Origin: a virus
IMG/VR virus record: IMGVR_UViG_3300029813_000617
Span: 1 to 64,000 of that record
Direction: 5' to 3' (one strand)
Length of the DNA: 64,000 nt
Under the pieces are notes generated by a model, which worked only from the letters and a program-made list of their open reading frames with translations, searched no databases and was not told the DNA's origin. A program made the position numbers and the translations under genes. Of this stretch, positions 2,420-44,215 are shown piece by piece (the stretch's first letter is position 1; every line of letters starts with the position of its first letter).

Positions 2420-2818
2420 CTATGCAATCCTCAGTTTACCTACCACGACTTTCACTTGATCTGCGGTCTTGGTAGTAAAGCCACTCGTGTTCTCGTCCCT
2501 CACCAGCATGTCTCCATCCGTGTCTGCATTGAACAGGCCGACTTCCGTCCAGGTGTCATTAGCGACACCCTTGGTGAAGATAGCTGAGAAACGAGCGATA
2601 TCGCCTCCAGTCAGCCATCTGGCAGTAATCGGTTCTCGATGGAGCTCGTTGACTAGAGCAGTGAGTTTAGTGTCCTCGCCCTCTGTGAGAATCCCAGTCC
2701 CGACTGCAATGTGAGAGGGTCTAACAAAGACATGATAGTTAGGATCCTCAGGGTCTAACTCCCCATAGCCTGCCATCCGCTCAGCATGGCGCTGCCGATA
2801 TCGATCTACGATGGTCAC
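2420..2818 (-). CDS. Small tail-associated protein
   Basis: 132 residues. The start ATG overlaps the stop of the upstream membrane-anchored gene by 4 bp (ATGA), so translation is probably coupled. The N-terminal 25 residues are charged (DRYRQRHAERMAGYGELDPED); the centre and C-terminus are beta-rich and contain KGVANDTWTEVGLFNAD, also present in the 595-residue adhesin. Phage tail-fibre accessory proteins commonly carry such a segment. The exact role is unknown. Confidence 0.45.
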   Translation of the reverse strand: MTIVDRYRQRHAERMAGYGELDPEDPNYHVFVRPSHIAVGTGILTEGEDTKLTALVNELHREPITARWLTGGDIARFSAIFTKGVANDTWTEVGLFNADTDGDMLVRDENTSGFTTKTADQVKVVVGKLRIA

Positions 2819-3078
2819 TTCTTCAACTCCAGTCGAGTCTCGATAGCCGTCAATCTGTTTGTCATAGCCACCTGGAGCTCCTGGAAGTTATCTGACAAAG
2901 CTCCAATGTGGTTCCCCAACCTGTCAACTTGCTCCTCTATACTCTTCTCACATTTCTGAAGGGCCTTGATGAACTCCTCCCTGGACCTACAGACTGCCTT
3001 GTTTACGTAGACATAGGCTCCAAGGATGGCTAGGAAAAGCGCAACCACGACGGGCACAAAAACAGCGTAGGGAACCAT
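2815..3078 (-). CDS. Small membrane protein with coiled coil (holin-like candidate)
   Basis: 87 residues, with a clear AGGAGG ribosome site before the ATG. Residues 3-26 form one hydrophobic membrane segment (YAVFVPVVVALFLAILGAYV), followed by a charged helix to the C-terminus with coiled-coil spacing. One N-terminal transmembrane helix plus a cytoplasmic coil, about 1 kb from the endolysin gene, would fit a class III-like holin or a lysis accessory. A membrane-anchored structural protein is also possible. Confidence 0.4.
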   Translation of the reverse strand: MVPYAVFVPVVVALFLAILGAYVYVNKAVCRSREEFIKALQKCEKSIEEQVDRLGNHIGALSDNFQELQVAMTNRLTAIETRLELKK

Positions 3079-4056: not shown

Positions 4057-5643
4057 CTACCAGGAGATGTGTGTCACCTTGTCCCACTGATCAATAGGGC
4101 ACACGACTATGCCACCCATAAACGGCTGCCATCGGACCCCCTTAGTGTCGTCTGTGTCACGGAGGGGTGTCCCCAGACTCTGCTTCCTGGCATATAGTGG
4201 AAAGGCGTGGCCTGGAGTGTAAGGCACGCCGATGGAATTCCAGGCCAGGTTGCGAATCTCCTCGTCAGTAGGAATCTCTGCTGGCGGAGGAGCAGGCATT
4301 CCGCCTGGTCTATACGCGCCCTTTGCCACAACATGATTCACGATGCGCCTGGACATGCTTCTTACAATCGTGAAGGAAGGCCAATTCCAATCGAGCCAGA
4401 CGAAGGGGGTCACGATTTGGACAGCTGGGTCTGCCGAGTATGCGATGCCACGCATTGCCAACTGACGCATATATTCAACTTCGTCCCCACCCAGTTTAAC
4501 CCGCCAGCCATCTGTCTCTGCGCCACCTCCACGATCTATGCCATGCTCTGTGATCCAAATTGGCGGTACGCGAAAGCCAGCGTCTTGTAATGCCTTCACA
4601 CCGCGCTTGTAGTGGCCTATGTGCCACTCGTTTTCAGGAGTAGAGTTAAGCGTGTCCATGCCATATTCATGCTCAACTAACACAGCAGCCTCATGACAAG
4701 CGGGACCAAAGATCTCCCACTTACGAGTGATCGGAGGCATTGGGTTAGCTTTGGGGCCTGAGGGGTGGCTCGTGCCGAAGACTCCCACTCCAGTGTCTAT
4801 ACCGCGCTGACGATTCAGGCGGACCAACTCAACCGTGAACTCGGTGAGCCACTTCATAGGGTCGAGATCGTTGGGATCCTCGGAATTCCCCGTGGAAGGT
4901 TCGTTAGGAGCCTGCCAGAGCCGAATCCAGGGACAAGCATCCTGCCTAGGAGCACACATGGCGACGTACTGTCGTGCCCCCATAGCACCCTGCTGAATGA
5001 GGGCTAGATCAGGGTCACCAGCAAAGACTAGTCGCCCCATGGCATGTACACCCGGGAATGGGTTGTATGTCCCTAGTACATCAGGGTCAATAAGTACCCC
5101 AGCCCAGACTCCCGCTTCGACTATGTGCTGCACAACCCAGTGGCCTGCCTGTCCTGGCCGCAGCAGATCACATCGCTGGATTGAGAAACTCAACTTGCTC
5201 ATCAGAAACCTCCTTAGGTAGTCTTTGGGATCGAGCCAGTCTTTGAATAGCGGGTTAGGCACCCCATCTTCTTGAATGCCCCAATGTAGATGTGGACCTG
5301 TGCAGGAGGGTGTCCCGTCGTCCTTGACTCCCGTAGCACCTGTTTTGCCTATCACCTGGCCGGCTCGAACCGTTTGGCCATAGGCTCCGATTGTCCGTAC
5401 CAAGTGTGCATGGAATGTGAAAAAGCCTTCCCCATAGACTCGAACAGAATTGCCATATTCGCCCCGCCATCTAGGATCTATCCAACCATTATGGGTGGCA
5501 AAGGTCGGAGTCTCGACTGGACAGGGAAAGTCCCAGCCTTCATGGCCAGCGAGACCATAGGGAATATACCACTCTGGGTGCTCCCCGAACTTCTGGCTGA
5601 CGGTCGTGAATCCAGGTGGCAGGGGCCAAGCTCGTATTATCAT
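4057..5643 (-). CDS. Two-domain endolysin: M23 peptidase plus GH-A-type glycosidase
   Basis: 528 residues. Residues 1-145 are an M23 (LytM-type) zinc endopeptidase: H34 and D38 in GHEGWDF, H78/H80 in FHAHL and H118/H120 in GPHLHWG are the expected zinc and catalytic residues. Residues 150-460 look like a TIM-barrel glycosidase of the GH-A clan: the acid/base candidate E248 lies in WQAPNEPS and the nucleophile candidate E366 in WITEHGID. The expected action is cleavage of both peptide bridges and a glycan of the host envelope. A strong internal ribosome site precedes Met148, exactly at the domain border, so the glycosidase may also be made alone. The alternative role is a tail-borne lysin; the glycan substrate is unknown. 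Confidence 0.75.
   Translation of the reverse strand: MIIRAWPLPPGFTTVSQKFGEHPEWYIPYGLAGHEGWDFPCPVETPTFATHNGWIDPRWRGEYGNSVRVYGEGFFTFHAHLVRTIGAYGQTVRAGQVIGKTGATGVKDDGTPSCTGPHLHWGIQEDGVPNPLFKDWLDPKDYLRRFLMSKLSFSIQRCDLLRPGQAGHWVVQHIVEAGVWAGVLIDPDVLGTYNPFPGVHAMGRLVFAGDPDLALIQQGAMGARQYVAMCAPRQDACPWIRLWQAPNEPSTGNSEDPNDLDPMKWLTEFTVELVRLNRQRGIDTGVGVFGTSHPSGPKANPMPPITRKWEIFGPACHEAAVLVEHEYGMDTLNSTPENEWHIGHYKRGVKALQDAGFRVPPIWITEHGIDRGGGAETDGWRVKLGGDEVEYMRQLAMRGIAYSADPAVQIVTPFVWLDWNWPSFTIVRSMSRRIVNHVVAKGAYRPGGMPAPPPAEIPTDEEIRNLAWNSIGVPYTPGHAFPLYARKQSLGTPLRDTDDTKGVRWQPFMGGIVVCPIDQWDKVTHISW
5200..5215 (-). promoter_or_regulatory. Internal ribosome binding site and start in endolysin gene
   Basis: On the minus strand AAGGAGG (5215-5209) is followed after six bases by ATG at 5202, which is Met148 in frame. 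This is a better ribosome site than the one before the full-length start. It would produce a 381-residue glycosidase-only product. Confidence 0.6.
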
Positions 5644-5737
5644 TGCTTGAGTCTCCGCAGGTGCTCTGCTGCCGCGTCGCTACTCTCCTGGACATGGGGC
5701 TGCTAGTTTTGTCATCGAGCTCCTTGTTGTCTGATCT

Positions 5738-8092
5738 CTAATGCCAAGTTGTAGACATAGACTGCCCAACCCTCGCAGCACCTATAACAGTTACGAGAAC
5801 TGTAACAGTGTCAAATGCTTGTATCCCAGGGTCGATACTCAGCTTAGCTGTGCCGGTATCCATCGTCCAAGCGCAGTTACCAGTGAGGTCTTTACCCATA
5901 AAACTCGTGAAATCCACAATAGGATTAGCTGCGGCATGACCTCGTAGTGAGTAAGCGATGATTCCGCCACCAAGAACAGCCGTGCCGGAGTCTTGAACTG
6001 CTATCTCGAGTTTGACAAGACAACCTGCCCAGCTCGCCGGAAAACCTATGGTTACCACATCAACTGCGGCAGCACCTTCAAGCTGATAGAGAGCGTGTTG
6101 CTCTGCAACCCCCTGGACAACGCCTGACCTGGTAATCATCTTCTTAGCAGTAGGAAGGTCAAGCTCGCCTTCCACTCCCAGGTCGCCCGCAATCGTGTGC
6201 GTCGGAAACTTGGCGTTGGCGTTCATCAGAAGGGGCTTACTTGCTGTGGGAGCTGCTGTAGGTTCAACGTGATGCAAGGCAACGCCTAACCCTGCTGGGT
6301 GTTTGTGCACATGGTCGCGGTGAGAAAACGGCAAAGCTGTTCCTGGTGAAGCTGCGCCGGCAATGTCTGCTGGGTTGGTAGCATCAAGAGCCGTCTTCCA
6401 TGAAGGCCTAGTCTCTGTGTCGTCAATACCCAAGACGTTTCTTACGTTGACTGCAGGAACAGCTCTGGCTAACCTTGACCACTTTGGTGTTGCATTTCCT
6501 ATAATTACATCGCCATCTATAACTGTATCCGCTAAAGTGTCTTGGTGATCTGCGCCTAGAAGATCGTGTCCACGATTGGCCAAGTCTTGATAGTTAGCAG
6601 GGGTTGCAACCAGAAAGGTGGTTTCGAAGGCGGATGCCGCCTCGGTTATTTCCGGTGCATCTTTGAACGCAATGATTCGTGCAACTAGCACTGAGAACCT
6701 ACTACAGATGTCCGGCACAGCGGGAAGTTCTGCTGCCTCTGCCTCATGTAGTTTGTAGCTGGCTCGTCCATACACGACATGCAGATGACTGTCATTGTCG
6801 AGATATACCCAATATACACCGTAACGGTTATTGGCAAGTGCAGCCAAACCTGTGCCTGTATCGTAGTTGGCAGAATCAATGTCGGTTTGATCTGCTGGAT
6901 GGCCAGTACTAGTCCAATTGCCTCCACCATCGTGATACCAAGCTCGAAATCTACCCGCACCCGACGTGTCCACTTCAGATGTTGTGTATCTATTAAACCC
7001 TGCGTAGAGAACGCCAGCAGTCACTTTTATTTTCAGTGTACCTTCATTAGAAATAATTGCGTCAGATGCTCTCTCAAAAGATCTCAATTCTCTGGCTCGC
7101 CCATGCGCCCTTCTTGCTAGATTGTAGATTCGCGTACCACCGGACAAAATATGAACCACCGTACCTTCACGAAAGACAGAACCAATTGTAAACTTGGTCG
7201 TGTGGTCTACAGTAGCATCAGGATCATCAGTGGCTCTGACTGTGGGCGTACCAGCGTTGTAATCAACATATATTGTGTTCCTTTTAGCATCAACCAGCAG
7301 GATGTTATTAGTTGTCGGCCAATCCATGAAGGCTGTAACACCATCAAACTCATCATCAGTCTTTTTGATCATTCCTTTGCCAGCAGCAACATTCACACGA
7401 CCATCAGTGATGTTACCGTCATCTGTTCCATCTGGAACATTGGCAACTGTTATAGTAGTTTCACCTGCTGCATATGTTGCATTACCAATGGTTGTATAGT
7501 CGCCGTCGTTGCCGGTAGACCCAGAGACAGTGAATACAACCCCGTCAGCGAAATACGCCATCATGTCACCAGCGACTTTAAATGTCTCTGCCACCTCGTC
7601 GGCATCTGTGATTGCATATGATGTTGCTGTGATTGCGCCGTCAGCGATTGCCCCAGCAGATTGCATGGTATTGATCCAATCCTGCACATCTTTGTATGCA
7701 GGCGCACCAACCTGCTCAACTACAACATCAACGGCGTGGTTTTGTATTCGTTCCCATCCAGCACCGTCATAGATATAGAGCAGATCTTCATCAGTGCGGT
7801 AGAAAATGCTGCCATCCACAGGTGCACCTGGAAACTCTGTGCCACTTGGCACACGCATGGTTCCTGTGAATGTCCATGCACCTGAGATGGTCTCTGCCTG
7901 AGCATGCCCGGGATATTGGGGATGATCGTCATCTCCTAAACCAGTAGTAGCTCCGTGATGAACTCTTTTCCCATGCTCAGCTACACCCGAGTGATCGTGT
8001 CCTGAAGCCGTATCCAGAACATCATCTCTCAAGGCATTGTACTGTGCAGAGAGCAGATCATCGCCTGGGTTTATTGCAGACGAGTTTGGCAT
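5738..8092 (-). CDS. Large tail fibre protein
   Basis: 784 residues. The N-terminus (MPNSS..., QYNALRDDVLDTASGHDHSG, HGKRVHHGATTGLGDDDH) is paralogous to the partial fibre at the left edge. Residues 60-125 contain a segment typical of phage fibres (AETISGAWTFTG, GSIFYRTDEDLLYIYDGAGWERI). The rest is a long Thr/Asp/Ala-rich beta protein; the C-terminal 130 residues probably form the receptor-binding tip. The ATG overlaps the stop of the upstream homing endonuclease gene (TAATG), so the endonuclease was inserted without breaking this gene. Confidence 0.75.
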   Translation of the reverse strand: MPNSSAINPGDDLLSAQYNALRDDVLDTASGHDHSGVAEHGKRVHHGATTGLGDDDHPQYPGHAQAETISGAWTFTGTMRVPSGTEFPGAPVDGSIFYRTDEDLLYIYDGAGWERIQNHAVDVVVEQVGAPAYKDVQDWINTMQSAGAIADGAITATSYAITDADEVAETFKVAGDMMAYFADGVVFTVSGSTGNDGDYTTIGNATYAAGETTITVANVPDGTDDGNITDGRVNVAAGKGMIKKTDDEFDGVTAFMDWPTTNNILLVDAKRNTIYVDYNAGTPTVRATDDPDATVDHTTKFTIGSVFREGTVVHILSGGTRIYNLARRAHGRARELRSFERASDAIISNEGTLKIKVTAGVLYAGFNRYTTSEVDTSGAGRFRAWYHDGGGNWTSTGHPADQTDIDSANYDTGTGLAALANNRYGVYWVYLDNDSHLHVVYGRASYKLHEAEAAELPAVPDICSRFSVLVARIIAFKDAPEITEAASAFETTFLVATPANYQDLANRGHDLLGADHQDTLADTVIDGDVIIGNATPKWSRLARAVPAVNVRNVLGIDDTETRPSWKTALDATNPADIAGAASPGTALPFSHRDHVHKHPAGLGVALHHVEPTAAPTASKPLLMNANAKFPTHTIAGDLGVEGELDLPTAKKMITRSGVVQGVAEQHALYQLEGAAAVDVVTIGFPASWAGCLVKLEIAVQDSGTAVLGGGIIAYSLRGHAAANPIVDFTSFMGKDLTGNCAWTMDTGTAKLSIDPGIQAFDTVTVLVTVIGAARVGQSMSTTWH

Positions 8093-8931
8093 TAGATTAC
8101 CTCGTAACTTGGAAGGAACCCTGAGAGAAAGGGTTGCGGAAAGGCAAGTAGCTCCTCAGCGCGTGCCTTCTTACGATCCAAGTATACAGTTGCTCCCTCA
8201 TAAAGTAGAAGGGCCACTCTTTGAGGCAGAGAGATACCTGAATACCTTACTGCGAAAATGCTGTCATGGCGGGTTGGTCGGGCTCTCGTCTTTATGTGGC
8301 TAGAGATGAAGTCACTGAAAGCCCAAACCATGCTCTCAGTTCCGACCAAGTTTATCTTAAAGCCTCTGATCTTCCCATTCCGTCTGAAGTAACTGATAGA
8401 CCCATCGCCATCGACCATGCCCCGCCAGTAGTGGGCTAGCAGAGACTCTGAGATAGCACTACAAGGTTCCAGAGTCAGAGATTTCCTCTGTGTAACACCG
8501 AGTCGCTTAAGGCTATCTACCAGTCTCGTGGATCCAATATGCACTCGTGCTTTCTGATAACCACCTTCCCAGTAGACCTTGACAGGATGTCCGGACTCTA
8601 GTGCATCAACGAATTTTCGCAAGTGCCTCTCGTCCTTACCAGATAAAGCCAGCTCCACGAAGTTTTTGCCAATCGTCCCATCTGCTGATAGGAATCCCAG
8701 CCAATACGCCTTAGCTTCAGAATCTATACAGTCGAAGAACTCCTCATTCACAGCATATTTCCTAGAGACCTCCGACCGCGATCTGCGAGGCACACCAGCT
8801 TGCTTGAGAGCAAAGTAACAAGCATTAGGAGAGTATCCAAAAGTGTCCGCTGCCACCTTTGCTGTAGCGCCATTTCTGTAAATCGCAACCATTGTTTCCC
8901 GATGCGTTTGAGGAATTGTCTTATTTGGCAT
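8092..8931 (-). CDS. LAGLIDADG homing endonuclease (two motifs, N-terminal HTH)
   Basis: 279 residues. Two LAGLIDADG helices are visible: AYWLGFLSADGTI (about 88-100) and HYWRGMVDGDGSI (about 175-187), each with the acidic residue that binds the catalytic metal, so it should act as a monomer. Residues 1-55 (RETMVAIYRNG..AKVAADTFGYS..ACYFALKQAGV) look like a helix-turn-helix, as in intron-type endonucleases. It is free-standing between a small tail gene and the 784-residue fibre and overlaps the fibre start. I see no intron or intein around it. Confidence 0.8.
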   Translation of the reverse strand: MPNKTIPQTHRETMVAIYRNGATAKVAADTFGYSPNACYFALKQAGVPRRSRSEVSRKYAVNEEFFDCIDSEAKAYWLGFLSADGTIGKNFVELALSGKDERHLRKFVDALESGHPVKVYWEGGYQKARVHIGSTRLVDSLKRLGVTQRKSLTLEPCSAISESLLAHYWRGMVDGDGSISYFRRNGKIRGFKINLVGTESMVWAFSDFISSHIKTRARPTRHDSIFAVRYSGISLPQRVALLLYEGATVYLDRKKARAEELLAFPQPFLSGFLPSYEVI

Positions 8932-9399: not shown

Positions 9400-9951
9400 C
9401 TAGGCTCCCTGCCAGAAAGTGAGCTGTGTCACAACTTGCTCATCAGCGAAAGCCGCTTCCCACCCACCTTCTCTGTAGGTTCGAGTTAGTTTCAGGCGCT
9501 GAGATAGATAGCGTAGAAGTTCACGATTATATGTGGCATATACCACTATCCCCCGACCGCCTTCACCTTGACCTGCCTTAATCTCCCGAACCGCTCGCTT
9601 CCAAATTTCGAAATCCCTTTGTTTCTTCGCTCTTAAGGGATATCTCTCAAAAACTTCGACTAGGCGAATGTTGTCATCAATACGGCACACGGTGAACTGG
9701 GCACAAGGATTACTTCCTCCAGATACTGCTTTCCGAGTAATCGTTCCCATTCTCAGCTTCTCCTGTATCTCTAACAGGATTTCCAAGTCATCATCTCGCA
9801 ATGAAATGGCAAACTGAGCGCGCCAGTTCCCCCCTCTCGCTCCTCCATACGTCTGCTTAACAATCGTAAAGCTCCCCTCGCCTGCCGCGAATCCCGCAAA
9901 CCAGTCAAGGAAGCCGTCTTTGTTGAGTTCGTCTAGTTCAGACTTGGTCAT
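9400..9951 (-). CDS. LAGLIDADG homing endonuclease (single motif)
   Basis: 183 residues. The motif WFAGFAAGEGSF (about 17-28) is a LAGLIDADG helix, followed by strands and basic residues (FAISLRDDDLEILLEIQEKL, GSNPCAQFTVCRI) usual for the LAGLIDADG_1 fold. With one motif it should work as a homodimer. It stands alone between the tail-hub gene and a pair of small tail genes, without signs of an intron. It is unrelated in sequence to the second LAGLIDADG gene 470 bp downstream, so the two arrived separately. Confidence 0.8.
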   Translation of the reverse strand: MTKSELDELNKDGFLDWFAGFAAGEGSFTIVKQTYGGARGGNWRAQFAISLRDDDLEILLEIQEKLRMGTITRKAVSGGSNPCAQFTVCRIDDNIRLVEVFERYPLRAKKQRDFEIWKRAVREIKAGQGEGGRGIVVYATYNRELLRYLSQRLKLTRTYREGGWEAAFADEQVVTQLTFWQGA

Positions 9952-24805: not shown

Positions 24806-27547
24806 CTAGGCCACGACCGCTGCATACACCCCACGGTGTTCTAGCGGTGCTACCCCGTAGATATGGCGTATTTTGTACCGAACGCTGTCGGCGGTGAACT
24901 GCTTGCCAGTGTTCGCCAGCTCGGTGAAGATCTGAGGCTCTCTAGCTCCATAGAACCCAACCTCGATAGTTGGGATAAGAGCTGGGTCACCCACTATGTA
25001 CCAGTCATTCGGATCAGTCCAATGCCTCACCACGACGGTCTCGAGAACCTTGTAGTGGATATTTGGCACTGTGGCATTCATGCCAGTAATGATCTTAACC
25101 GGTGACATGATCAGATCCCAAGCTGTACCCCGCAACTCGAGAGGAACTAGCAGGTACTTAGGCTCAACATCGATGTAGGTGAGTGCAGTCTCACCAGCAC
25201 CTACGGGTTCCATCTGCTCCAGCATAGCATTTAGAGCTGCTGTGAGTGAAGTGGCACTGAGAGCTGAACTGCCCAGGTTCCCGTGGGAAGTGTCAAACAA
25301 GGCTACTCCTGTATCCCACTCTACATCTTCGTTATCAGGAAAGATGTCGAAGATCGCCTTGTAGAGACCAACTCTTGCAGCAAAACCCATGGAACGAGGG
25401 ACCCGCCTGATAGCATTCAGGTCATCATTTGCAATGGCCCTCAGAGTGATGCTCTCCAGCTTGCCCCGGACAGTGGGAGTATATACTGCCTTTTCGTCAC
25501 CAGGGGAATAAAGGTAGGCATCATAGTCGTCACCTTCATCGACTTCTGCTAGAGCCCCGTACCCCCCAGTTCTCACCCGCTCCTGTTCCTTCATGTTGTC
25601 GAGAGTTTCGATGTTCGAGACAACCTTCTTCCAGTCATCATATCCAGGCTTCCGATACTCCTTCAGAAGCTGACGGGTGATACTGGTGCCAAAGACGTTT
25701 TCCCAAGTCCCGGTTTCGATTGCCTCTCGAAGGAACCCAGTAGCCGAGTCGAAGGGCCTGCCCGAGGCAGATAGGATTTCCTGAGCCCTCACCTCGAAGA
25801 ACGGTCTTCGAGTAACAACTGAGTATGCCTCACGAAGATTGCGGAAGCGCTTTACTCCCTCGATATCCACACCCTCGAACATACCGTCCATGGCTTTGTC
25901 GATCTTGTCCCGAGGGCTATCGCCAAAGCGGACTTGGGGATAAGTAGGTGATACGGCGGGCAGGATTTGTGCCAAGACCTCTTTCTCCTCTCGGATTGCC
26001 TCCTTGAGTTCCTCACCTGTGAACTCGAGGGTTGAGAAGCGACGTCCGAGCTTGTCCTGGACGGGCTGTGGAAGATCGCTCGACCGCAGGCTGGAATCGA
26101 GTTCCACCTGCAGGGCTACCTTCCTGCCAGAGTCCCTCATCTCTGTGAGTTCGTCCTGCAAGCGCCTGATCTCAGTCATCGCCTCGGTGATAGGCGTGAA
26201 GTCTGGCTCAGGCTCAGGCTCAGGCTCTGGCTCTGGCTCCGGTTCCGGTTCTGGCTCAGGCTCTGGCTCTGGCTCAGATTCCAAGAACAGGTCTGGTCGA
26301 AGCTCCTCGAGCTCCTCCTTCGAGATGGAGCCCAAGATATCAAGTTGTCCCACTTCATCCTCCTCTGATTCTAGTATTCTCACGAACCTACCACCTGCAG
26401 CTGGCTCAGTGACAGCATCCACAGACTTTATCCCGTCGATGGAGAGCACTTCTTTGATGAACCGTTCACCCTCGCGGACCAGCTTGTGTCTGCCGATGCC
26501 ACTGATGGAAAAGCCGACTAGATCATGCTTGCCCCGCTCCCAAGCCTCCACGACCTTGTCCCTGAACCAGGCTTCTGACTCGAGTAGATTGAGCGTTGCC
26601 CCAATACCCTTCGAGTTGAGCATTCGGACATTCTCGAACCAGCCAATCAGGTCACGGACACTGCGCTCAGGGCGGTCCCTCCGCTCGGAGGCCGTCTGAT
26701 GGTCAGCATAGCACTTGGCACCCTCGAAGAGAGGTAGTGCCTTCTCGAGGATAGGTAGCGAATATCGGCGGCGTGTAGCTGAAAGCCCAGCCTCGACGAG
26801 AACCACTTCCCATTGTTTTCCATCAGTGTCTTCTACAGCCTCAAGAATCCGACCACTGCGAGCGACGAAGGATTCCTCACGCCTTTCGCCTATCTCCTTG
26901 GCTCGCATCTGAGCGCCACATTTAGGGCACTTCTTGTCACGAGCCTTCACTCCAGCCTCTACTGTCTCCTCGTGGCCGCATTCAGGACAATAGATGACAT
27001 GCTTTCCGTGAGGATGTGGTTCGGCTTTGGAGACTTTGCCATATTCGCCCTTCATCTCAGTCCCACACTTGGGGCACTTCTTGTCCTTGAGATACTCATC
27101 TGCCTTAGCCTTATAGCCACACTTAGGGCAGACAAGAGCAGCCTTGGAGACTTTGCCGTATTCGGCTTTCATCTTAGTCCCACACTTGGGGCAGTTGCCC
27201 TTCGCGTCAGGAGTACCAGTGAAGCCACACTTGGGGCAGCGGTAGGTGCAACCCTTCTCGACTTTGCCGTAGTCTTTGCCGAAATACTGAGTCAGATTGT
27301 CCACAGTCTTCTTTGCGATGGCTTCAAGCTTGGTTTTGCCTTTGACCTTCTCCAGAAAGACTTTGAGCTTCTCTAGAGCCTCAGCATTACGGCTAGCTTT
27401 GGCATCCTCTGTCGCGGTCTGGCCTGCAAGGAGCTTCAGGCGCATGAAAGCGCCTTTGGCTGCCTTAGGGACCTCTTCGCCAGAGCCATCTACTGCTTTG
27501 ACGAAAGCGGAGATCCACGCCTTCACCTTGGATGTGAATCCAGCCAT
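24806..27547 (-). CDS. Capsid polyprotein: zinc ribbons, prohead protease, scaffold, major capsid protein
   Basis: 913 residues with a strong ribosome site (AGGAGG). Order: an alanine/lysine-rich helix (1-90); three zinc ribbons made from repeated CPKCG/CPECG pairs separated by YGKVSK (100-214); a serine prohead-protease domain (about 245-392) with H283 in CYADHQ and S347 in LVGFSIS; twelve Glu-Pro repeats (425-448); a scaffold-like coiled coil (450-530); and a major capsid domain of the Mu gpT/HK97 kind (about 545-913). Fusion of protease, scaffold and capsid in one chain implies release by self-cleavage. An in-frame GTG with a ribosome site at Val399 could give scaffold plus capsid without protease. 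The zinc ribbons are not usual for this family. Confidence 0.8.
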   Translation of the reverse strand: MAGFTSKVKAWISAFVKAVDGSGEEVPKAAKGAFMRLKLLAGQTATEDAKASRNAEALEKLKVFLEKVKGKTKLEAIAKKTVDNLTQYFGKDYGKVEKGCTYRCPKCGFTGTPDAKGNCPKCGTKMKAEYGKVSKAALVCPKCGYKAKADEYLKDKKCPKCGTEMKGEYGKVSKAEPHPHGKHVIYCPECGHEETVEAGVKARDKKCPKCGAQMRAKEIGERREESFVARSGRILEAVEDTDGKQWEVVLVEAGLSATRRRYSLPILEKALPLFEGAKCYADHQTASERRDRPERSVRDLIGWFENVRMLNSKGIGATLNLLESEAWFRDKVVEAWERGKHDLVGFSISGIGRHKLVREGERFIKEVLSIDGIKSVDAVTEPAAGGRFVRILESEEDEVGQLDILGSISKEELEELRPDLFLESEPEPEPEPEPEPEPEPEPEPEPEPDFTPITEAMTEIRRLQDELTEMRDSGRKVALQVELDSSLRSSDLPQPVQDKLGRRFSTLEFTGEELKEAIREEKEVLAQILPAVSPTYPQVRFGDSPRDKIDKAMDGMFEGVDIEGVKRFRNLREAYSVVTRRPFFEVRAQEILSASGRPFDSATGFLREAIETGTWENVFGTSITRQLLKEYRKPGYDDWKKVVSNIETLDNMKEQERVRTGGYGALAEVDEGDDYDAYLYSPGDEKAVYTPTVRGKLESITLRAIANDDLNAIRRVPRSMGFAARVGLYKAIFDIFPDNEDVEWDTGVALFDTSHGNLGSSALSATSLTAALNAMLEQMEPVGAGETALTYIDVEPKYLLVPLELRGTAWDLIMSPVKIITGMNATVPNIHYKVLETVVVRHWTDPNDWYIVGDPALIPTIEVGFYGAREPQIFTELANTGKQFTADSVRYKIRHIYGVAPLEHRGVYAAVVA
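26204..26275 (-). repeat. Low-complexity EP-encoding tract
   Basis: Twelve Glu-Pro codon pairs encode a stiff linker between the protease and the scaffold parts of the capsid polyprotein. At DNA level it is an imperfect 6-bp repeat (GGCTCA/GGCTCT/GGTTCC), liable to change in length. Confidence 0.8.
26351..26366 (-). promoter_or_regulatory. Possible internal start for scaffold-capsid product
   Basis: AGAGGAGG (26366-26359) precedes in-frame GTG 26353 (Val399) by five bases. It falls just after the protease domain, the same arrangement as lambda C/Nu3. The site lies in a run of GAG/GAT codons, so the ribosome site may be a chance result of acidic coding. Confidence 0.35.
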
Positions 27548-27849: not shown

Positions 27850-30800
27850 TTATTCGACCTGAATCAGAAACTCTTCCTTGATCGCAGGAGCGCTGACCAG
27901 GGAAATCTTGTCAATCCTGATATCGTAGAGGCCATCAGAACTATCCATACGGCCTTTCCCTAAGATGGAGAAACCCGTGAGTTCTCCCGTAAGGATGCGT
28001 TGTCGAACCTGTGGTGAGAGCACAGCAATCTCGATAACGGCTGTGCCCTTCCTGAACAGTCGCTTCCCAACACGAAAGCTCGCAGGGGCTTGAAAAATCT
28101 GGGTGAGCTTAACAGAACCCTTGGGAACCTTCTCACTATGCTCGATATCAATCTCATAGCCATCGATGGAGCGAAGGGCCTTGGTGATTTCCTCAGCAGT
28201 AACATGGTGCTCCTGGGCATCAGTTTTGCCAGGAATCAGAAGTGGCCCATAGAGGAACATACCCTTCTCGCTAGGAGGTGAGTGGAAGAGCCTAGAACTG
28301 AAGGAGAGAGACTTCGCTAAACGAAATTCCCCATCGCCAGCTGCAAACTCTTTCCATTTCTCTTCTAGCTTTTCATCAGTAATGGGGCCAAGCCATCTAC
28401 GACCTAACGAGTCAGCCTTGAGGACTTTGAGCAAGTCAGCATTCCAGACGATGTGCTTGAGTCGCTCCTTCTGTGCCTGGCGTTCTTTGGACTCACGGGA
28501 ATACTGGAGGATGTAGGGCCGAGGGTTTACAGTAACTCTGTTTATCATCCACCAGTCACCCTCTGCACCGATTTTCGTATACTCAGGTCTGGCTGCCAGG
28601 ATCTGAGCACCCCAGCGACCAGAGAGCTTTTTGGTTCGATCGAACCAGAAGAAGCCTTCGTGATAATCACTCTTGCGGACACCATAAGCGCATCTGCCAA
28701 AGTCTGCAAAAATGAAACGAGCTCCAGTTTTGACTGTAGCCCCAACAGCACCTGGCGGAGCCCAATAGATGAGCCGCTTCGGATTCACGATTGTGAGCCA
28801 AATGAGAGGTTGGACTGCTTCGTCGAGTCCCCTCTCAGCCTCAATAAGCACTCTGAGTGAAATAGGATCTGTGTCTAAAAGCTCAAATGCAAGTATCGTT
28901 CCCTCAGGTAGAACTGCATCCCCGATCTGTACGATCTCGAATTGCTTGTATGCCTCTAGCAACTCGGAGCTATTCTCAACGAGATGGAGATACCGCTCCT
29001 CATCGCAGAGGGGGTTTGGGCATTTCCTATGTGCTACGATCTTATCATCGGGCTGATTCTCGAGAAACTTGTCACGGATGGGGTAGATATACTTGTGCCC
29101 ACTCGCAAACTGTAAGACGATGGATGGAGCATCAACTGTATACCCGATGAGATGTTCTCCCTCAGGTGACCTCATACGCCAGTCGCCGTGAACGTTCCCA
29201 ACGTTCAGGATTTGGTCAAGAGACGGAAGAGATTTAGGAACTTTCTCATCAAGGAATCCATGGACAGCAGCTGAGACGTCTCCTCGCTTGTCAGCAGCAG
29301 CCTGAGCACGGCGCTTGAGAGTATCTAGGGAGCCTGTCAGAATAACTGGTTTATACTTGCGCCAAATGTCAGGAATGAGGCTCGAGTCGCTCCTGGCCTT
29401 AGTAAACTCAGCTCGGAGACTCTTGAGTTCATCTGGTGTCCAGATACCTCGTTCGTGGTGCATATAGACGAAGGGAAAGGTCTTATCAGGAGGCTGGTGA
29501 ACGAGATAGGGATCACCAAACTTACGCTCAGCCTCAGCCCGTTGCTTCTTGTGAGCGGGCTCATCGCCCTCACCAGAAGGCATACTAGACTCAAAGGCAT
29601 AAACTTGGATGCTAGTGTTTGCCAGATCGTAGTAACCCAACTGGAGTCCTTCACGAGGAGAGAGAAAGTCCTGGAACTCAATGGCTACCTTTTTAGTTGT
29701 GAAGCAAGCCAGATGGTTTTTGTCCCACCTGACACACCAAGCACTATGTGCTCCTGCTTCCTCGGGTCCATCCTGACGGAAGGATTTAGGGATAATCTGA
29801 GGAGGCTTCTGAGCTGCTTCGTTAAACTTTCGAATCTTAGTTTCAGCTTCTCTGACCCCTTCTTTGCCATAAGGCTTGATACCTGTCCCAGAAAGATCGC
29901 AGTAGCCAAATTGCCCTATCTCACTAGAGGGCTGCTTATCACGAAACTTCTCTGCATCATTTTTCTGTCGATAACATGCGATAGCTCTACCCTCTGCCCA
30001 AATCACGCACCAACCATGACCTGGCTCAGCGGTAAGAGGCCCCTCAGAAAGAAAGCGAGAAGGCTTGGTGGCCTCGCGAAGCTTTTGAGCTTCGGCGAAA
30101 TCATAGTTCCCAATCAAGAGTTCCTTCCGTGTACCAGGAGCCTGGCCTGTCCGAGTTTTTCGAGAATAGGTCGCATAGCGCATTCCAAGACTGACACCTT
30201 TGATGCTGGAGCCCTTGAAGGCTGCTCTGGTCCGCTTGCTATCGTACATAGAGAGCAGCCACTTACCACGAAGCCCCTTGAGGAACTTGGCCAGCCTTTC
30301 TGGCTCGGGGGCTGTAGATCCATAAGGTTGGAGATCACCACTGCCAAAGTGAGGGGGGTCAATATAGTGAAAGGTGGAAACTGAGTCATACTGCCGCATA
30401 GTCTTGAAAGCATCCTGTAGGGTGACAGTGACATCCCCCTTGAGCTTTTGGCTAGCAGCCTGAAGCTTAGCTACTACTCCAGCCCAGGAGCGAGTTTGAC
30501 CAGTCGAAGCAAAGCCCTTGGCAGGAGAGTCAGCCCAGGAGTTGAAGTTAAGGTAGAGGAACCGATAGAATCGCTCCCGCTTGCGGACAGGTTTCTGGTC
30601 TTTGAGAAACTGCCAGCGACTCTTGGACGGACGCCAGTTCTGTTTCTTGAGCCACTCAATGTCTGACGAGGAGATATTCCTGATGAACCTGAGAGCTGCT
30701 ATGATCTCAGGGTCCATATCGCCTAGGACAGATTTGGATGCTTTGTCCTTGGCAAAGAAAATCGTAGCCGAGCCACAGTAAGGCTCCACGTAAGCCTGGT

Positions 30801-32373
30801 GCTTAGGGATAAGTGGCAGGATGTGCTTGACCAGGAGTGTCTTGCCTCCTGGATGACCAAAGGGCCTGATAGATTTTTGGAGAGTCTTGGGTGACCGTTG
30901 TACGATCTTCTCAACGTCGGCCACAGTATCAGGCTTCTTTCGAGTTGGGTCATACTCGCGAACCCTAGGGAAGGTCCACGAATAGTGTTCCTTGCCCTCG
31001 TCATCCTTCCAGACTCGCATAAGGATCGGAGCGACAGTGATAATATCACCCAACTTGGGACCAGGATCGAGCTTGATCGCATAGGTATTCCCATAGGCCC
31101 AGTCACCACGCTCTCGATGCTCGAAGCCCTTAGCCATCTCCCAGATTTGGGGATCGTCAGTGCCCTTCCAGACTCCGCCCTCATGCTCGGCGTCGAACTT
31201 GAGAGTGAGATCTCCAGGGGCCAGTTTATGCTGAGAGTCAATAGGGATTAGCTTAGAGTCATCGCGAACTGCACACCTATAGTAGAAAGTTTGGGAGTCT
31301 TTCTGGAGCTTACGAAAAGCTTTGAGGGCCTCTTCGCCTTCGAGGTTACGCTTGGAGCGATCAGGCCAAGGGTTAGGTTTGCGAGTTCGACCTATAACTT
31401 GGACATGCAGTTCAGAGACCATCTTGAGCTTTCCCCAATCGGCAGTCTCTTCTCGAGTGCGACCCCGAAGAGGATAATCAGAGTCCAGAGTCTTGACCAT
31501 TGCACCCTCGCTGCCAGGATAAGCGATGGCCTTGTCAAGGGCAGCCATAAAGTCAGCCTTGGATTTGGCAGTCCAAGTCACAGCTTTTCTAAGATGCTTC
31601 TTATCCTTGGGGAGCATCCTGGAAAGAGATGCAAGGCGTTCAGAGTAGGACTTGGTATTGAGTGCCTGACCATCCAGATAGAGAACGTCGTGGATGTTGA
31701 TCCGAATATCCTCTCCCTTGACAGGAGTTTTGCCTACGATGACCCTGACCATCTCTCTGCGAGGGATAGGCTGCTCTTTCTGCCAGAGCACTAGTTCGAC
31801 ATCTACAATCCCCGACTTGATCGGAAGGCCGCGAACCTCGGAGACGACATCAGGAAGAATTGAGGCACGGTCACGCTTCTTGTCTTCAGTATAGATGGCT
31901 ACTCGCTCTCCTTCCCAGTGGATAAGTAGTCTCAGGCCATCATACTTGGGCTGAATAGCGATAGGGCGATTAGCCTCCAGGCGTTCCTTAGCCCAAAGCT
32001 CATACAGGTCACCCTTGTTATTGAATTCGAACTGACCATAGCCAGTACGAGCTTTCAGGGGCGTGAAGGGCTTGAAGAGAGTCACCTGCTGCTCAGCGAG
32101 AACGAGAGTCTGTGCATCATCCTCGGGCAGACTGGATACGAATAATGCGACTCGCTCCTCATGAGAGAGCTCAGCTAGGCTCTCCCCAGATAGCTCTAGG
32201 CAGTCAGTAGGATAGAGGTTTCCTTCATGACCAAGGGTGGGTAGTGAAAATGAGGACAGACCCAGTTCTCGATATCGACTCAGGCTATCGGCGTAGTCAC
32301 CCGAGACATCGTTACCATCTGCATCCAGGACGAAGCAGATATTTTTGATTTTTCGAATCAGGAGTTCAGCCAT
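27850..32373 (-). CDS. Fusion of DNA ligase, Dam-like methylase, repeats and XkdF-type protease
   Basis: 1507 residues with its own promoter. An ATP-dependent ligase core spans about 135-320: motif I PKYDGLR (lysine 143), VDVELV (189-195, normally DGE), EGAMVK (289-294) and DWGKLK (312-317), then a probable OB fold to about 485. A Dam-type adenine methylase follows (about 503-755): RPFGHPGGK, YVEPYCGSATIFF, GDMDPE and IDPPH (671-675, where DPPY is usual). Two related 47-residue units occur at 788-836 and 879-926. The stretch 950-1350 is unassigned; HGDWRMRSPEGEHLIGYTV (1062-1080) faintly recalls the LigD phosphoesterase. Residues about 1372-1505 match the XkdF prohead protease (LYGPLLIPGK, H1412, S1469 in TGFSI). 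It directly precedes the capsid gene. Confidence 0.7.
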   Translation of the reverse strand: MAELLIRKIKNICFVLDADGNDVSGDYADSLSRYRELGLSSFSLPTLGHEGNLYPTDCLELSGESLAELSHEERVALFVSSLPEDDAQTLVLAEQQVTLFKPFTPLKARTGYGQFEFNNKGDLYELWAKERLEANRPIAIQPKYDGLRLLIHWEGERVAIYTEDKKRDRASILPDVVSEVRGLPIKSGIVDVELVLWQKEQPIPRREMVRVIVGKTPVKGEDIRINIHDVLYLDGQALNTKSYSERLASLSRMLPKDKKHLRKAVTWTAKSKADFMAALDKAIAYPGSEGAMVKTLDSDYPLRGRTREETADWGKLKMVSELHVQVIGRTRKPNPWPDRSKRNLEGEEALKAFRKLQKDSQTFYYRCAVRDDSKLIPIDSQHKLAPGDLTLKFDAEHEGGVWKGTDDPQIWEMAKGFEHRERGDWAYGNTYAIKLDPGPKLGDIITVAPILMRVWKDDEGKEHYSWTFPRVREYDPTRKKPDTVADVEKIVQRSPKTLQKSIRPFGHPGGKTLLVKHILPLIPKHQAYVEPYCGSATIFFAKDKASKSVLGDMDPEIIAALRFIRNISSSDIEWLKKQNWRPSKSRWQFLKDQKPVRKRERFYRFLYLNFNSWADSPAKGFASTGQTRSWAGVVAKLQAASQKLKGDVTVTLQDAFKTMRQYDSVSTFHYIDPPHFGSGDLQPYGSTAPEPERLAKFLKGLRGKWLLSMYDSKRTRAAFKGSSIKGVSLGMRYATYSRKTRTGQAPGTRKELLIGNYDFAEAQKLREATKPSRFLSEGPLTAEPGHGWCVIWAEGRAIACYRQKNDAEKFRDKQPSSEIGQFGYCDLSGTGIKPYGKEGVREAETKIRKFNEAAQKPPQIIPKSFRQDGPEEAGAHSAWCVRWDKNHLACFTTKKVAIEFQDFLSPREGLQLGYYDLANTSIQVYAFESSMPSGEGDEPAHKKQRAEAERKFGDPYLVHQPPDKTFPFVYMHHERGIWTPDELKSLRAEFTKARSDSSLIPDIWRKYKPVILTGSLDTLKRRAQAAADKRGDVSAAVHGFLDEKVPKSLPSLDQILNVGNVHGDWRMRSPEGEHLIGYTVDAPSIVLQFASGHKYIYPIRDKFLENQPDDKIVAHRKCPNPLCDEERYLHLVENSSELLEAYKQFEIVQIGDAVLPEGTILAFELLDTDPISLRVLIEAERGLDEAVQPLIWLTIVNPKRLIYWAPPGAVGATVKTGARFIFADFGRCAYGVRKSDYHEGFFWFDRTKKLSGRWGAQILAARPEYTKIGAEGDWWMINRVTVNPRPYILQYSRESKERQAQKERLKHIVWNADLLKVLKADSLGRRWLGPITDEKLEEKWKEFAAGDGEFRLAKSLSFSSRLFHSPPSEKGMFLYGPLLIPGKTDAQEHHVTAEEITKALRSIDGYEIDIEHSEKVPKGSVKLTQIFQAPASFRVGKRLFRKGTAVIEIAVLSPQVRQRILTGELTGFSILGKGRMDSSDGLYDIRIDKISLVSAPAIKEEFLIQVE

Positions 32374-32518: not shown

Positions 32519-32986
32519 CTATTTTTCAAGCCTTAAGATCCAAGTCGTGGATTCATCGCTAAGTCCAAACCCGCACTTCTCAAAGAGCTTTATCGATCGA
32601 GTATTATGACTGGAGATGGACGCCCGGAGCTCATGTAGCCCCAGCTCCCAAGCTTTTGCTATTGTCGCTCTCAACAACTTCTCTCCTAAACCCTTACCCT
32701 GCGAAATGGGAGAGATACAAACTCCTATCTCTGCTCCGCTCACTCCAGCAGACTGTCGTAGCTGGCTATAACCGAAGAACCAACCCGGACGGCAACCTAT
32801 GTAGATGCGCCACTCGGACTGTTCTAAGTACTTGCTAAACCAAGCCTTCTGCTCTTCCACGGTGATAGGTCTAGGATCTCGTAGCCACCTGTACACTTCA
32901 GGGTTGCTACGTGTCAATCGCACAAACTCGAGTGTTCCCTCGCTCAGGGGTTCTAAGATGATATCACCAGCCAGTATTGATAACAT
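32519..32986 (-). CDS. GNAT N-acetyltransferase (amino-sugar type)
   Basis: 155 residues from ATG 32986, with AAGGTG upstream and a short overlap with the aminotransferase before it. The GNAT core is clear: IGVCISPISQGKGLGEKLL is the acetyl-CoA loop (Q/R-x-x-G-x-G/A) and LRASISSHNTRSIKLFEKCGF is the C-terminal motif of RimJ/RimL and PseH-like enzymes. Behind a DegT aminotransferase it probably N-acetylates a 4-amino-4,6-dideoxy sugar nucleotide. It is the last gene of the glycan island. Confidence 0.7.
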   Translation of the reverse strand: MLSILAGDIILEPLSEGTLEFVRLTRSNPEVYRWLRDPRPITVEEQKAWFSKYLEQSEWRIYIGCRPGWFFGYSQLRQSAGVSGAEIGVCISPISQGKGLGEKLLRATIAKAWELGLHELRASISSHNTRSIKLFEKCGFGLSDESTTWILRLEK

Positions 32987-34073
32987 CAATCACCTTTTCG
33001 ATATCCTCATCTGATAGACCCAGGTGCAACGGAAGAGAAATCAACCTCTCAGAACAAAGTTGTGCCACGGGAGTCTCACTTATAAGACCACCATAGATAG
33101 AGTAGGAGTTGTTCGGTATATAATGGACTCCTGGCTCGATACCGTTCCCTTTCAGCTTTTTTATGAGGCCATTTCGGTTTCTTGCTTGGATCCAAAAAAG
33201 ATGCTGAGCACAGGTTCTAGTAGGATCTGATAGGGGCATCTTAATCACAATGTCTCTATGAATCAAACCCTCGCTGTACATCACTGCGATCTGCCTGCGT
33301 CGCTCGTTTCCTGCTTCCAGTACCTTGAGCTGGGCTAAGCCAATAGCAGCGATTACGTCATTCATATGATACTTGTAGCCTATCTCAGTAACATCATACT
33401 GCCACGCGTAGGCTCCAGTATCCTCCTCAGTACGTCTCCAAGTATCCTTGTCTATGCCTAGCCATCGTAGTCGCTTGGCCCTTTCTGCATATTTGCGACT
33501 CGAGGTAGTTAGCATTCCGCCATCAGCCGTAGGGAGATTTTTGACAGCGTGGAAGCTGAAACAGGTCAAGCCAGAACCCCCGATAAGGCGATTTATGTAG
33601 GTGCTCCCACAGGCATGAGCGGCGTCTTCGATAACAGTAATACCCAAGTGTCTGGCAGGCTCTTGCAACATAGCAAGGTCACAAGGCCAGCCCCCAAAGT
33701 GGACACACATAATAGCCTTAGTCTTCGGAGTGATTAGCTTCACTACAGACGCCGGATCAATGTTACACGTCCTAGCCCTAACATCAGCCCAGATAGGGGT
33801 TGCCCCACAGTATCGAATCGCATGATTAGTAGACACAAAAGTAAGTGGGGTCGTTATTACCTCATCACCAGGTCCCACTCCAACTAGCAAGAGAGCTAGG
33901 TGCAAAGCAGCTGTACCTGAGTTGAGAGCAACTGCATACTTCGCTCCTACGTATTCAGCAAATGCTTTCTCAAACCCGGCGGTCTTGGGTCCCAGGCCAA
34001 TCCAGCCCGACCTGAGAACTTCCTCGACCGCTTTAATAGCCTCTTCTGTAATGTATGGCTTAAACAACTGCAC
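32964..34073 (-). CDS. DegT/DnrJ/EryC1 sugar aminotransferase (second copy)
   Basis: 369 residues from GTG with GGGAGGAC upstream. PLP-fold signatures: ALNSGTAALHLAL phosphate-binding segment, VIEDAAHACGS with the PLP-ring aspartate, and SFHAVKNLPTADGGML with the internal-aldimine lysine. These enzymes transfer an amino group from glutamate to a keto-sugar nucleotide. The next gene is an N-acetyltransferase, suggesting a two-step amino-sugar pathway. No dehydratase is present, so the keto substrate would come from the host. Sequence differs clearly from the other DegT copy. Confidence 0.85.
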   Translation of the reverse strand: MQLFKPYITEEAIKAVEEVLRSGWIGLGPKTAGFEKAFAEYVGAKYAVALNSGTAALHLALLLVGVGPGDEVITTPLTFVSTNHAIRYCGATPIWADVRARTCNIDPASVVKLITPKTKAIMCVHFGGWPCDLAMLQEPARHLGITVIEDAAHACGSTYINRLIGGSGLTCFSFHAVKNLPTADGGMLTTSSRKYAERAKRLRWLGIDKDTWRRTEEDTGAYAWQYDVTEIGYKYHMNDVIAAIGLAQLKVLEAGNERRRQIAVMYSEGLIHRDIVIKMPLSDPTRTCAQHLFWIQARNRNGLIKKLKGNGIEPGVHYIPNNSYSIYGGLISETPVAQLCSERLISLPLHLGLSDEDIEKVIDVINTGW

Positions 34074-34076
34074 CTC

Positions 34077-34772
34077 TCAGTCCTCCCACGGAGTAAAGTC
34101 TTTGTTCCAATAGTTGTCACTGGATTTATGGATCTTATCTGCCAGAGTGATTGGGACATGCTCTATCTTGAAATGTTGTGCAATTCTGAACCAATAGTCC
34201 CAATCTGCCGTCGCGGAATAGGAAGCACCTGGGTGAGAATATCTCCCGTGCTTATTTCTGAAATATCCCACTTTATCAATGACCTCTCTGCGATGCATTA
34301 CTGCCAAGACTGCTATGAGATTTGTGCGTTTCATCATCTCCATATCAAAATCGCGAGATAGATCACGCCTGGCAATCTCTCCCTGCCCATATAGGTTTCT
34401 GTGCCAAACATAGTCACAAAAGGCTAGTCCGACGCCTGGATGTGCGTCTAAGTAAGCACTCATAATCTCTAAGAACTTGAGTTTGTAAGTGTCATCATGG
34501 TCAAGATAGCAAAAGTACTTCCCACGAGCAATCCTCATACCGTCATTCCTAACACACTCGCCCTGCCTTAGATATGGCCCCGCCTTTTTGATATAGATGA
34601 TTCTGGAATCATCAAACTGCTTGATTACTTGTTCAGTGTTGTCAGGAGAGACGTCATCAATGATAATAAGCTCGAAGTTGGGCATGGTTTGGAGTAACAC
34701 GCTTCTAATAGATCTCTCGATGAAGCGTGCTCCTTTGTAGGTAGGCATTATGACAGATACTAAGGGGTTCAT
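34077..34772 (-). CDS. GT2 family glycosyltransferase
   Basis: 231 residues from ATG 34772 (an 11-codon upstream extension would overlap the previous gene). GT-A fold: PLVSVIMPTYKGARFIERSI, IIIDDVSPDNTEQVI and a YLDHDD metal motif. It lies between the two DegT aminotransferases, so it may transfer one of their products onto a growing glycan. Confidence 0.85.
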   Translation of the reverse strand: MNPLVSVIMPTYKGARFIERSIRSVLLQTMPNFELIIIDDVSPDNTEQVIKQFDDSRIIYIKKAGPYLRQGECVRNDGMRIARGKYFCYLDHDDTYKLKFLEIMSAYLDAHPGVGLAFCDYVWHRNLYGQGEIARRDLSRDFDMEMMKRTNLIAVLAVMHRREVIDKVGYFRNKHGRYSHPGASYSATADWDYWFRIAQHFKIEHVPITLADKIHKSSDNYWNKDFTPWED

Positions 34773-34774
34773 TA

Positions 34775-35887
34775 TTACTCTCTTGCTATTCTGATGATTT
34801 GGCAAACCCTACTGATCTCTCTCTGACTCACAGAGGTGCCAGTAGGCAGACAGAGCACTTGCTGAGTTAGGAGATCAGTCTCTGGCAACAACAGGCCCTC
34901 GTAAAAAGGGGAAGAGTGATACGGCTCCATGCGATGGCAGCCTGGATAGAAGTAACGTCGAGCAAGTACATTCTCGGCATGCAGAACCTCAACTAGGTGA
35001 TCCCGACTGATACCAGAAATCGCCTCATTGATCTCTAAAACGATGTACTGATAATTACACTTCTCGGTTTCGTCATAGGCTAGGAGCTGAATTCCAGGTA
35101 TGCCCTCCAACTCCTCTCGATATCGCTTATAGTTGCGGTAGTTGACAGCAACAAACTCACTAAAACTCTCCAGTCCCGTCAGCCCCATTGCTGCCGATAT
35201 CTCACTCATCTTGCCATTAGTGCCAACGCTAACAACGTTATCATAGCCTGCAAAACCAAAGTTCTTCATCAAGCGAACCCTGGCAGCTAAGTCATCATCG
35301 TTGGTAGTTATCGCCCCACCCTCGAAAGTATTGAGAATTTTTGTCGCATGGAAACTAAACATCTCAGCATTGCCAAAACTACCAACCATTTGCCCTTTGT
35401 GCGAACATCCAAAGGCATGGGCAGCATCAAACAGGAGCTTTAGACCTTGTCGCTGTGCAAGCTTAGTTAACACTTCTATATTACAGGGCCGTCCCCATAC
35501 ATGAACGCCGATAATGCCAGTAGTACGTAATGTGATCAGTCGCCTCACTTGATCTGGATCTATGTTACAAGTGTAAGGATCAATATCGCAGAAGACAGGC
35601 GTAATTCCCAGCCACTGCAAAGCATGAGCTGTAGCAATAAAGGTAAATGAAGGCACAATGACTTCGCCAGACAGCCCCAATGCTCGGATAGCGACCTCCA
35701 GCGCAACAGTACCATTACAAGCAGCAACACAATGCTTGACTCCTAAAAGGTCAGCAACGCGCTGCTCGAATTCCTGCACATAGCGACCCCTGTTAGTCAA
35801 CCAGTGTCTATCCAGGAGATCGTTGATACGCTCTAGTAGACATTCACGACTGCCGATATTAGGACGACCGACGTGTAGTGGACTCAT
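34775..35887 (-). CDS. DegT/DnrJ/EryC1 sugar aminotransferase (first copy)
   Basis: 370 residues from ATG 35887 (a TTG three codons earlier is possible). Signatures: ACNGTVALEVAIRALGL, LLFDAAHAFGCS and SFHATKILNTFEGGAI with the PLP lysine. The C-terminal ARRYFYPGCHRMEPY resembles aminotransferases making 3- or 4-amino-6-deoxy sugars. Immediately upstream is a PglD/NeuD-type acetyltransferase; together they fit synthesis of an acetylated amino-deoxy sugar. Confidence 0.85.
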   Translation of the reverse strand: MSPLHVGRPNIGSRECLLERINDLLDRHWLTNRGRYVQEFEQRVADLLGVKHCVAACNGTVALEVAIRALGLSGEVIVPSFTFIATAHALQWLGITPVFCDIDPYTCNIDPDQVRRLITLRTTGIIGVHVWGRPCNIEVLTKLAQRQGLKLLFDAAHAFGCSHKGQMVGSFGNAEMFSFHATKILNTFEGGAITTNDDDLAARVRLMKNFGFAGYDNVVSVGTNGKMSEISAAMGLTGLESFSEFVAVNYRNYKRYREELEGIPGIQLLAYDETEKCNYQYIVLEINEAISGISRDHLVEVLHAENVLARRYFYPGCHRMEPYHSSPFYEGLLLPETDLLTQQVLCLPTGTSVSQREISRVCQIIRIARE

Positions 35888-35892
35888 AATAG

Positions 35893-36543: not shown

Positions 36544-36549
36544 GAGGTA

Positions 36550-37268: not shown

Positions 37269-37273
37269 AGTAC

Positions 37274-38152: not shown

Positions 38153-38241
38153 TTCAACGACTCCATCCGCATCTTTTACACAGGGGTAAGAAGCGTTCTC
38201 CCCTGCTTAGTCTTTCGTATACCTCTTTGTATGGCTAAACA

Positions 38242-39521: not shown

Positions 39522-39525
39522 CTAC

Positions 39526-40164: not shown

Positions 40165-40169
40165 GGTCC

Positions 40170-40964: not shown

Positions 40965-40968
40965 CTTG

Positions 40969-43348: not shown

Positions 43349-43349
43349 C

Positions 43350-44210: not shown

Positions 44211-44215
44211 CTAGT

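Follow-up and report, generated by a model that had tools for sequence, protein, structure and literature searches.

Does a single reading frame for a phage lysin provide one product or two? The question is raised by a gene with a ribosome site at the border between its two halves, located in a 64,000-nucleotide stretch of viral DNA (referred to here as the window; positions 1 to 64,000 of IMG/VR virus record IMGVR_UViG_3300029813_000617). The gene (4057..5643) is on the minus strand of the window, where it is read from 5643 to 4057 over 528 codons, and it has homologous fused ORFs in related phages. We consider it likely that two products are made from the one frame, and that the shorter is a complete second enzyme with its C-terminal module. 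Two products are probable because a second ribosome site, strong in the window, recurs at the seam between the halves in six diverged lineages.

Organization of the lysin gene and its genome context

The full-length product of 528 amino acids is organized into an N-terminal M23 peptidase, an unannotated glycosidase-like domain, and a C-terminal module. The gene's own start codon, ATG (5643..5641, minus strand), is preceded by the weak Shine-Dalgarno sequence GGAG (5653..5656, minus strand). The M23 domain comprises residues 33-129 (5257..5547, minus strand) and matches Pfam PF01551 above the cut-off, with an E-value of 4e-15. The zinc-binding and catalytic motifs HxxxD and HxH are present, and residues H34, D38, H118, and H120 are invariant in an alignment of nine sequences. 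The C-terminal module (AWNSIGVPYTPGHAFPLYAR..., 4060..4281, minus strand) is homologous to the C-termini of glycosidases encoded as separate genes in the relatives L026 and L065, and is possibly a wall-binding part. It can be exchanged, since other modules occupy its place in L001, L007, L025, and L034.

The complete record of 91,230 bases is a viral contig of a tailed phage, as indicated by matches to terminase, portal, and tape-measure proteins. The lysin gene is positioned at the end of the tail module, at the boundary between the tail and lysis genes, and nearby matches to holins and spanins are weak. An 87-residue ORF downstream of the lysin gene (2815..3078, minus strand), in which one transmembrane segment and a coiled coil are discernible by eye, weakly matches PHROG profiles of an Rz-like spanin (E=0.026) and a holin (E=0.098). 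It is possible that this ORF encodes a lysis partner.

Elsewhere in the window, Pfam identifies two LAGLIDADG endonuclease ORFs flanked by tail genes, as well as a more distant GIY-YIG ORF (8092-8931, 9400-9951, and 60896-61387), while the ORF at 49053-49670 appears HNH-like by eye and has no Pfam match. A single ORF of 1507 amino acids (27850-32373) contains the domains of an ATP-dependent DNA ligase and a D12 adenine methyltransferase together with an XkdF-like phage protease. In another, of 913 amino acids (24806-27547), a major capsid domain is fused downstream of zinc ribbons and an extended (EP)n repeat. Between the capsid and portal genes, about 15 kb (32519-47525) are filled by apparent genes of sugar biosynthesis and transfer, among them a DegT aminotransferase and a PglD/hexapeptide acetyltransferase identified by Pfam, and glycosyltransferases and methyltransferases recognized by eye. 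In L001, ORFs resembling glycosyltransferases are found after the lysin gene as well.

The glycosidase-like half

The second half of the lysin contains a glycosidase-like (beta/alpha)8 domain (4309..5202, minus strand). The AlphaFold model of the 381-residue product that would begin at the internal start has a pLDDT of 71, with values below 50 in the C-terminal module. Foldseek matches the model, with modest TM-scores (0.36-0.49 of the query), to PslG, which scores best, and to barrels of families GH1, GH5, and GH39; viral glycosyl hydrolases are matched as well. A (beta/alpha)8 barrel, as in clan GH-A, is found in both the model and its structural matches. A profile built from eight sequences aligns with GH5 mannanases at the motif NEP and with GH1 enzymes at TE.G, with marginal E-values. 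The putative acid/base E248 (NEP; 4902..4900, minus strand) and the putative nucleophile E366 (TEHG; 4548..4546, minus strand) are invariant in nine sequences.

The domain resembles members of clan GH-A such as PslG, GH39, and GH5 enzymes in its predicted fold and in its putative NEP acid/base and TE nucleophile motifs, whose glutamates are expected on strands 4 and 7 in that clan, but differs from the families of the clan in having no family-level sequence match in Pfam, NCBIfam, or PHROG, and the comparison involves a model of moderate confidence. Because of the missing family match, we describe the second half as clan-GH-A-like only, and propose that it is a glycosidase. An earlier note on this DNA had placed the ribosome site at the border between an M23 peptidase and a glycosidase. 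The peptidase side of that border is borne out by Pfam, whereas the term glycosidase is derived from fold and motifs and has no family match behind it.

A ribosome site within the linker

Since the Pfam domain ends at residue 129, Met148 is just beyond the M23 part. On the minus strand the seam reads GAC TAC, then codons 143-148 (CTA AGG AGG TTT CTG ATG), and then AGC AAG. AAGGAGG occupies positions 5215..5209 and is followed by six bases (TTTCTG) and by the ATG of Met148 (5200..5202, minus strand), the predicted start of the 381-residue product, for which an ATG or GTG is present at the equivalent seam in the other lineages. The earlier note had described this arrangement correctly throughout, without giving the strand. 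The Shine-Dalgarno sequence is longer than the seven bases named there: UAAGGAGGU (5208..5216, minus strand) lies within the five-residue linker LRRFL, and in the seam sequence TAAGGAGGT-TTCTG-ATG the stretch TAAGGAGGT is a nine-base perfect complement to the tail of 16S rRNA. Pairing was scored against the canonical anti-Shine-Dalgarno sequence, which is assumed here for the host. The duplex energy of the internal site is -12.7 kcal/mol, compared with -6.6 kcal/mol for the gene's own start. The complete record has 101 ORFs with 897 in-frame internal ATG, GTG, and TTG codons, and of all these the internal site has the strongest Shine-Dalgarno sequence.

When the residues DYLRRFL were fixed and their codons redrawn according to genome usage, 2.5% of draws reached the strength of the window site (p=0.025), through AGG AGG. 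In an initiation model, which is a simplified re-implementation of a thermodynamic model, the seam start ranks first among the 25 internal starts of the gene. Its predicted rate equals that of the gene's own start and does not exceed it, because the Shine-Dalgarno sequence is partly folded into an ACCU/AGGU stem. A large excess of the short product over the long one in the window was considered and rejected in view of this folding and of the equal modelled rates. Local RNA structure was also considered as a switch, and no claim is made for it, as the folds are no more stable than those of shuffled sequences.

Recurrence of the site in diverged relatives

Relatives were collected by protein scans and by a scan of IMG/VR with an M23 profile. 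Besides the window, M23-glycosidase proteins are encoded in L001-L003, L008, L007, L025, L033, L034, and L039. In all six lineages the equivalent seam contains an ATG or GTG start codon, directly before the residues SKLS, SKLG, SKIS, or TKTT, and a Shine-Dalgarno-like stretch upstream of it. In five of the six the stretch is near-perfect and the start is the top-ranked internal start, whereas the sixth lineage has a weak stretch and a second-ranked start. Ranks refer to the in-frame internal starts of each gene in the simplified initiation model.

The seam of the window, AAGGAGG-TTTCTG-ATG (rank 1/25), encodes the linker RRFL-M. The corresponding sequences are AAGGAGG-ATGTT-ATG in L025 (rank 1/30, linker EKEDV-M), AAGGAGG-CATTC-GTG in L033 (rank 1/33, GKEAF-V), GAGGAGG-AATAC-GTG in L034 and L039 (ranks 1/25 and 1/26, EEEY-V), and GAGGAGGAGG-GGCGT-GTG in L007 (rank 1/34, EEEGR-V). 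In the group of L001, L003, and L008 the seam is AAAGGAAGATCTCATT-ATG, with ranks of 2/27, 2/29, and 2/23, respectively; the border Shine-Dalgarno sequence of this group is weak (-5.6), and the best internal start is located elsewhere in the gene. The residues of the linker vary by lineage, and the Shine-Dalgarno sequence of the window is read in a different codon register. Identities among the more distant lineages are 36-55% in the M23 part and 24-65% in the glycosidase part.

Fisher combination of the ranks over the six lineages gives a p of about 1e-4, to be read loosely as the lineages are related. With the amino acids fixed and synonymous codons redrawn, the joint p is 0.07-0.21 in four lineages and 0.57 in the L001 group, and the combined p is 0.022. 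This synonymous test is moderate only, because linkers rich in K and E give strong Shine-Dalgarno sequences fairly often. That the seam site is more than chance is indicated by its recurrence across the lineages. For comparison, 13 proteins that combine M23 with a different partner, such as SH3 or a coiled coil, were examined; no border start among them pairs more strongly than -6.3 kcal/mol, with the border unplaceable in two. A border ribosome site was likewise not found in the protein of L036 and L061, which has a different architecture. This protein of 1033 amino acids (L036:2177-5278; L061 is the same contig) has its M23 domain between two glycosidase-like parts. Contig scans and tblastn searches of phage and plasmid records with the glycosidase found no relative, and the motif SKLSWH[IV]Q, sought at the DNA level, matched two contigs, both already known.

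A second internal start is predicted at the border between the glycosidase and the C-terminal module in some relatives. It is positioned at codon 446 of L001 (L001:7327-7338), and similarly in L003 and L008, with the sequence GGAGGAAGC-ATG, and at codon 443 of L025 with GAGGAGTCCTCA-GTG. Among the internal starts of each gene, it takes first place in the L001 group and second place in L025. It is possible that the L001 group and L025 produce three nested products from these predicted starts, namely the entire enzyme, the glycosidase with its C-terminal module, and that module by itself.

Standalone glycosidases and exchange of modules

The glycosidase is also found as a separate gene. L026 encodes a standalone protein of 384 amino acids (L026:2842-3996) and L065 one of 383 amino acids with a TTG start (L065:4001-5152), both with a C-terminal module as in the window protein. 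They begin with (M)STKLSLHW, at the residue homologous to the internal start of the window. The L026 protein is 26.9% identical to the 381-residue half (E=1e-16). The predicted internal product (4057..5202, minus strand) would therefore have the extent, start, and architecture of a natural protein. In both L026 and L065 a separate M23 gene is located just downstream of the glycosidase and ends shortly after DPV.F, the point at which the linker of the fused proteins begins. Because the gene order there is glycosidase and then M23, L026 and L065 do not represent the arrangement from which the fused gene directly arose, and no split form with the M23 gene ahead of the glycosidase gene was found among the relatives examined.

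The similarities of the two enzymes disagree between lineages. The M23 part of the window is 53% identical to that of L025 and 43% to that of L007, whereas the glycosidase is 26% identical to that of L025 and 63% to that of L007. The lysin of L008 is a mosaic of an L001-like M23 part and C-terminus and a window-like glycosidase. A first switch in its nucleotide similarity falls near nt 400-460, around the border start (nt 430), and a second near nt 1240-1320, just ahead of the predicted start within GGAGGAAGCATG at nt 1333. The switch regions (L008:1491-1551 and L008:2331-2411) are thus close to both predicted internal starts. The switch points and the discordant similarities indicate that the ribosome-site seam is also a recombination seam.

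Alternative explanations

Recombination at the seam feeds the chief rival to the two-product reading, according to which the Shine-Dalgarno sequence and start codon are left over from a once-separate glycosidase gene, may still initiate, and are kept by repeated recent exchange at the seam and not by selection for two products. The existence of standalone glycosidase and M23 genes agrees with such a history, as do the closeness of the window to L025 in one module and to L007 in the other, and the L008 switch near the internal start. However, a site that is not selected should have decayed in most lineages, given the high divergence between them, yet five of the six sites are near-perfect at glycosidase identities of 24-65%, and we judge this explanation improbable. 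Even less probable, in our estimate, is that the codons of a hinge rich in K, E, and R happen to spell a Shine-Dalgarno sequence and that the full-length enzyme is the sole product. The synonymous test shows that strong sites are not rare given the amino acids in four lineages, and that the L001 group is near codon expectation; as this test is moderate when taken by itself, coincidence is retained as a rival. It is nevertheless set aside on the basis of rank and recurrence, and the window and combined values of the synonymous test also speak against it. Furthermore, every lineage has a start codon at a suitable spacing, the seam start is homologous to the starts of the standalone genes, and it was not seen in the other M23 fusions compared.

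Independently of translation, the lysin might be a virion-associated tail-tip protein that acts at entry, with the internal product as an additional structural or depolymerase subunit. In the window, L001, and L008 the gene comes immediately after genes that resemble those of tails or fibres, and PslG, to which the fold is matched best, is encoded in an exopolysaccharide locus. Against this, small membrane or coiled-coil ORFs are located nearby in the window, L007, and L033, as in lysis modules, the lysin is the sole M23 match in the 91-kb record, and two enzymes followed by a C-terminal module are the layout of an endolysin. We regard a role in the virion as unlikely, and the product as a probable endolysin.

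Proposed expression and origin of the two products

In the two-product reading, initiation at the weak upstream site would yield the 528-residue M23-glycosidase enzyme, and initiation at the strong site UAAGGAGGU within the linker would yield the 381-residue glycosidase with its C-terminal module. The linker would be the ribosome site itself: the M23 part stops where standalone M23 genes stop (DPxxY/F), and five residues follow. The internal start codon would correspond to the native start that the glycosidase has where other phages encode it by itself, and the most likely origin of the arrangement is the in-frame joining of an M23 gene and a glycosidase gene. It was probably kept because a surplus of the second enzyme alongside the full-length protein speeds or tunes lysis, as in other Type I lysins. 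The earlier suggestion of dual translation gains from the recurrence in six lineages and from standalone homologues of equal length.

If this reading is true, the known range of two-product lysins would grow to include uncultivated phages as well as a glycosidase without a described family. It would also point to an evolutionary route in which a fusion retains the ribosome site of the downstream gene, providing a joined enzyme and an extra half in a ratio that evolution could tune. As the two genes occur both separately and fused, such a route is open to testing. A broader proposal is tentative and, taken as a whole, somewhat doubtful: that these proteins form a lysin family with an undescribed glycosidase, in which the ribosome site serves both as the linker and as the place where modules are exchanged, the joined genes kept their own starts, and L025 and the L001 group make three nested products.

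Comparison with known two-product lysins

About half of the endolysins from phages infecting Gram-positive bacteria are predicted to have an internal start (PMC9430671). In Type I the internal start is between two catalytic domains, as in the lysins of Ms6, Pollywog, 2638A, and Javan488 (PMC12203907, PMC9430671). The window gene has an in-frame start with a ribosome site between the M23 domain and the glycosidase-like domain, the activity of the latter being presumed, and this site exceeds the background and is conserved in position (rank 1 of 897 in the record; rank 1 in five of six lineages). It is probably a Type I iTSS lysin in which the five-residue linker itself is the ribosome site. In Type II iTSS lysins (CTP1L, Lys170, LysIME-EF1) the internal in-frame start is similarly at a domain border, but the short product consists of a binding subunit alone, whereas that of the window would be catalytic. 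The initiation model places no strong start at the glycosidase/C-terminal border of the window; a Type II-like site is predicted in L001, L003, L008, and L025.

A short product with a catalytic domain, which the earlier note had considered less usual, is not new, because Type I is an established class represented by Ms6 LysA and Ply2638A. The lysin Ply2638A of Staphylococcus phage 2638A likewise has an N-terminal M23 domain followed by an in-frame start, so that the M23 domain is omitted from the short product, which contains the second catalytic domain and the C-terminal domain, as predicted for the window (PMC12203907). In Ply2638A these are an amidase and an SH3b binding domain and both products were demonstrated, whereas the window protein has an unannotated glycosidase-like domain, a different C-terminal module, and predicted products. 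Phages making one form of Ply2638A only release their progeny later (PMC12203907). LysA of mycobacteriophage Ms6 similarly contains an embedded in-frame gene, Lysin241, with its own consensus ribosome site and a catalytic short product; mutants with one form of LysA lyse abnormally, and both forms are needed for the normal timing of lysis (PMC3111421). LysA differs from the window lysin in its amidase domain, overall architecture, and host. Compared with the known Type I lysins, the window protein would be distinguished by a glycosidase-like enzyme that belongs to no described family, a linker pared down to the ribosome site, the recurrence of the arrangement in deeply diverged uncultivated phages, and a predicted short product that is a separate gene elsewhere.
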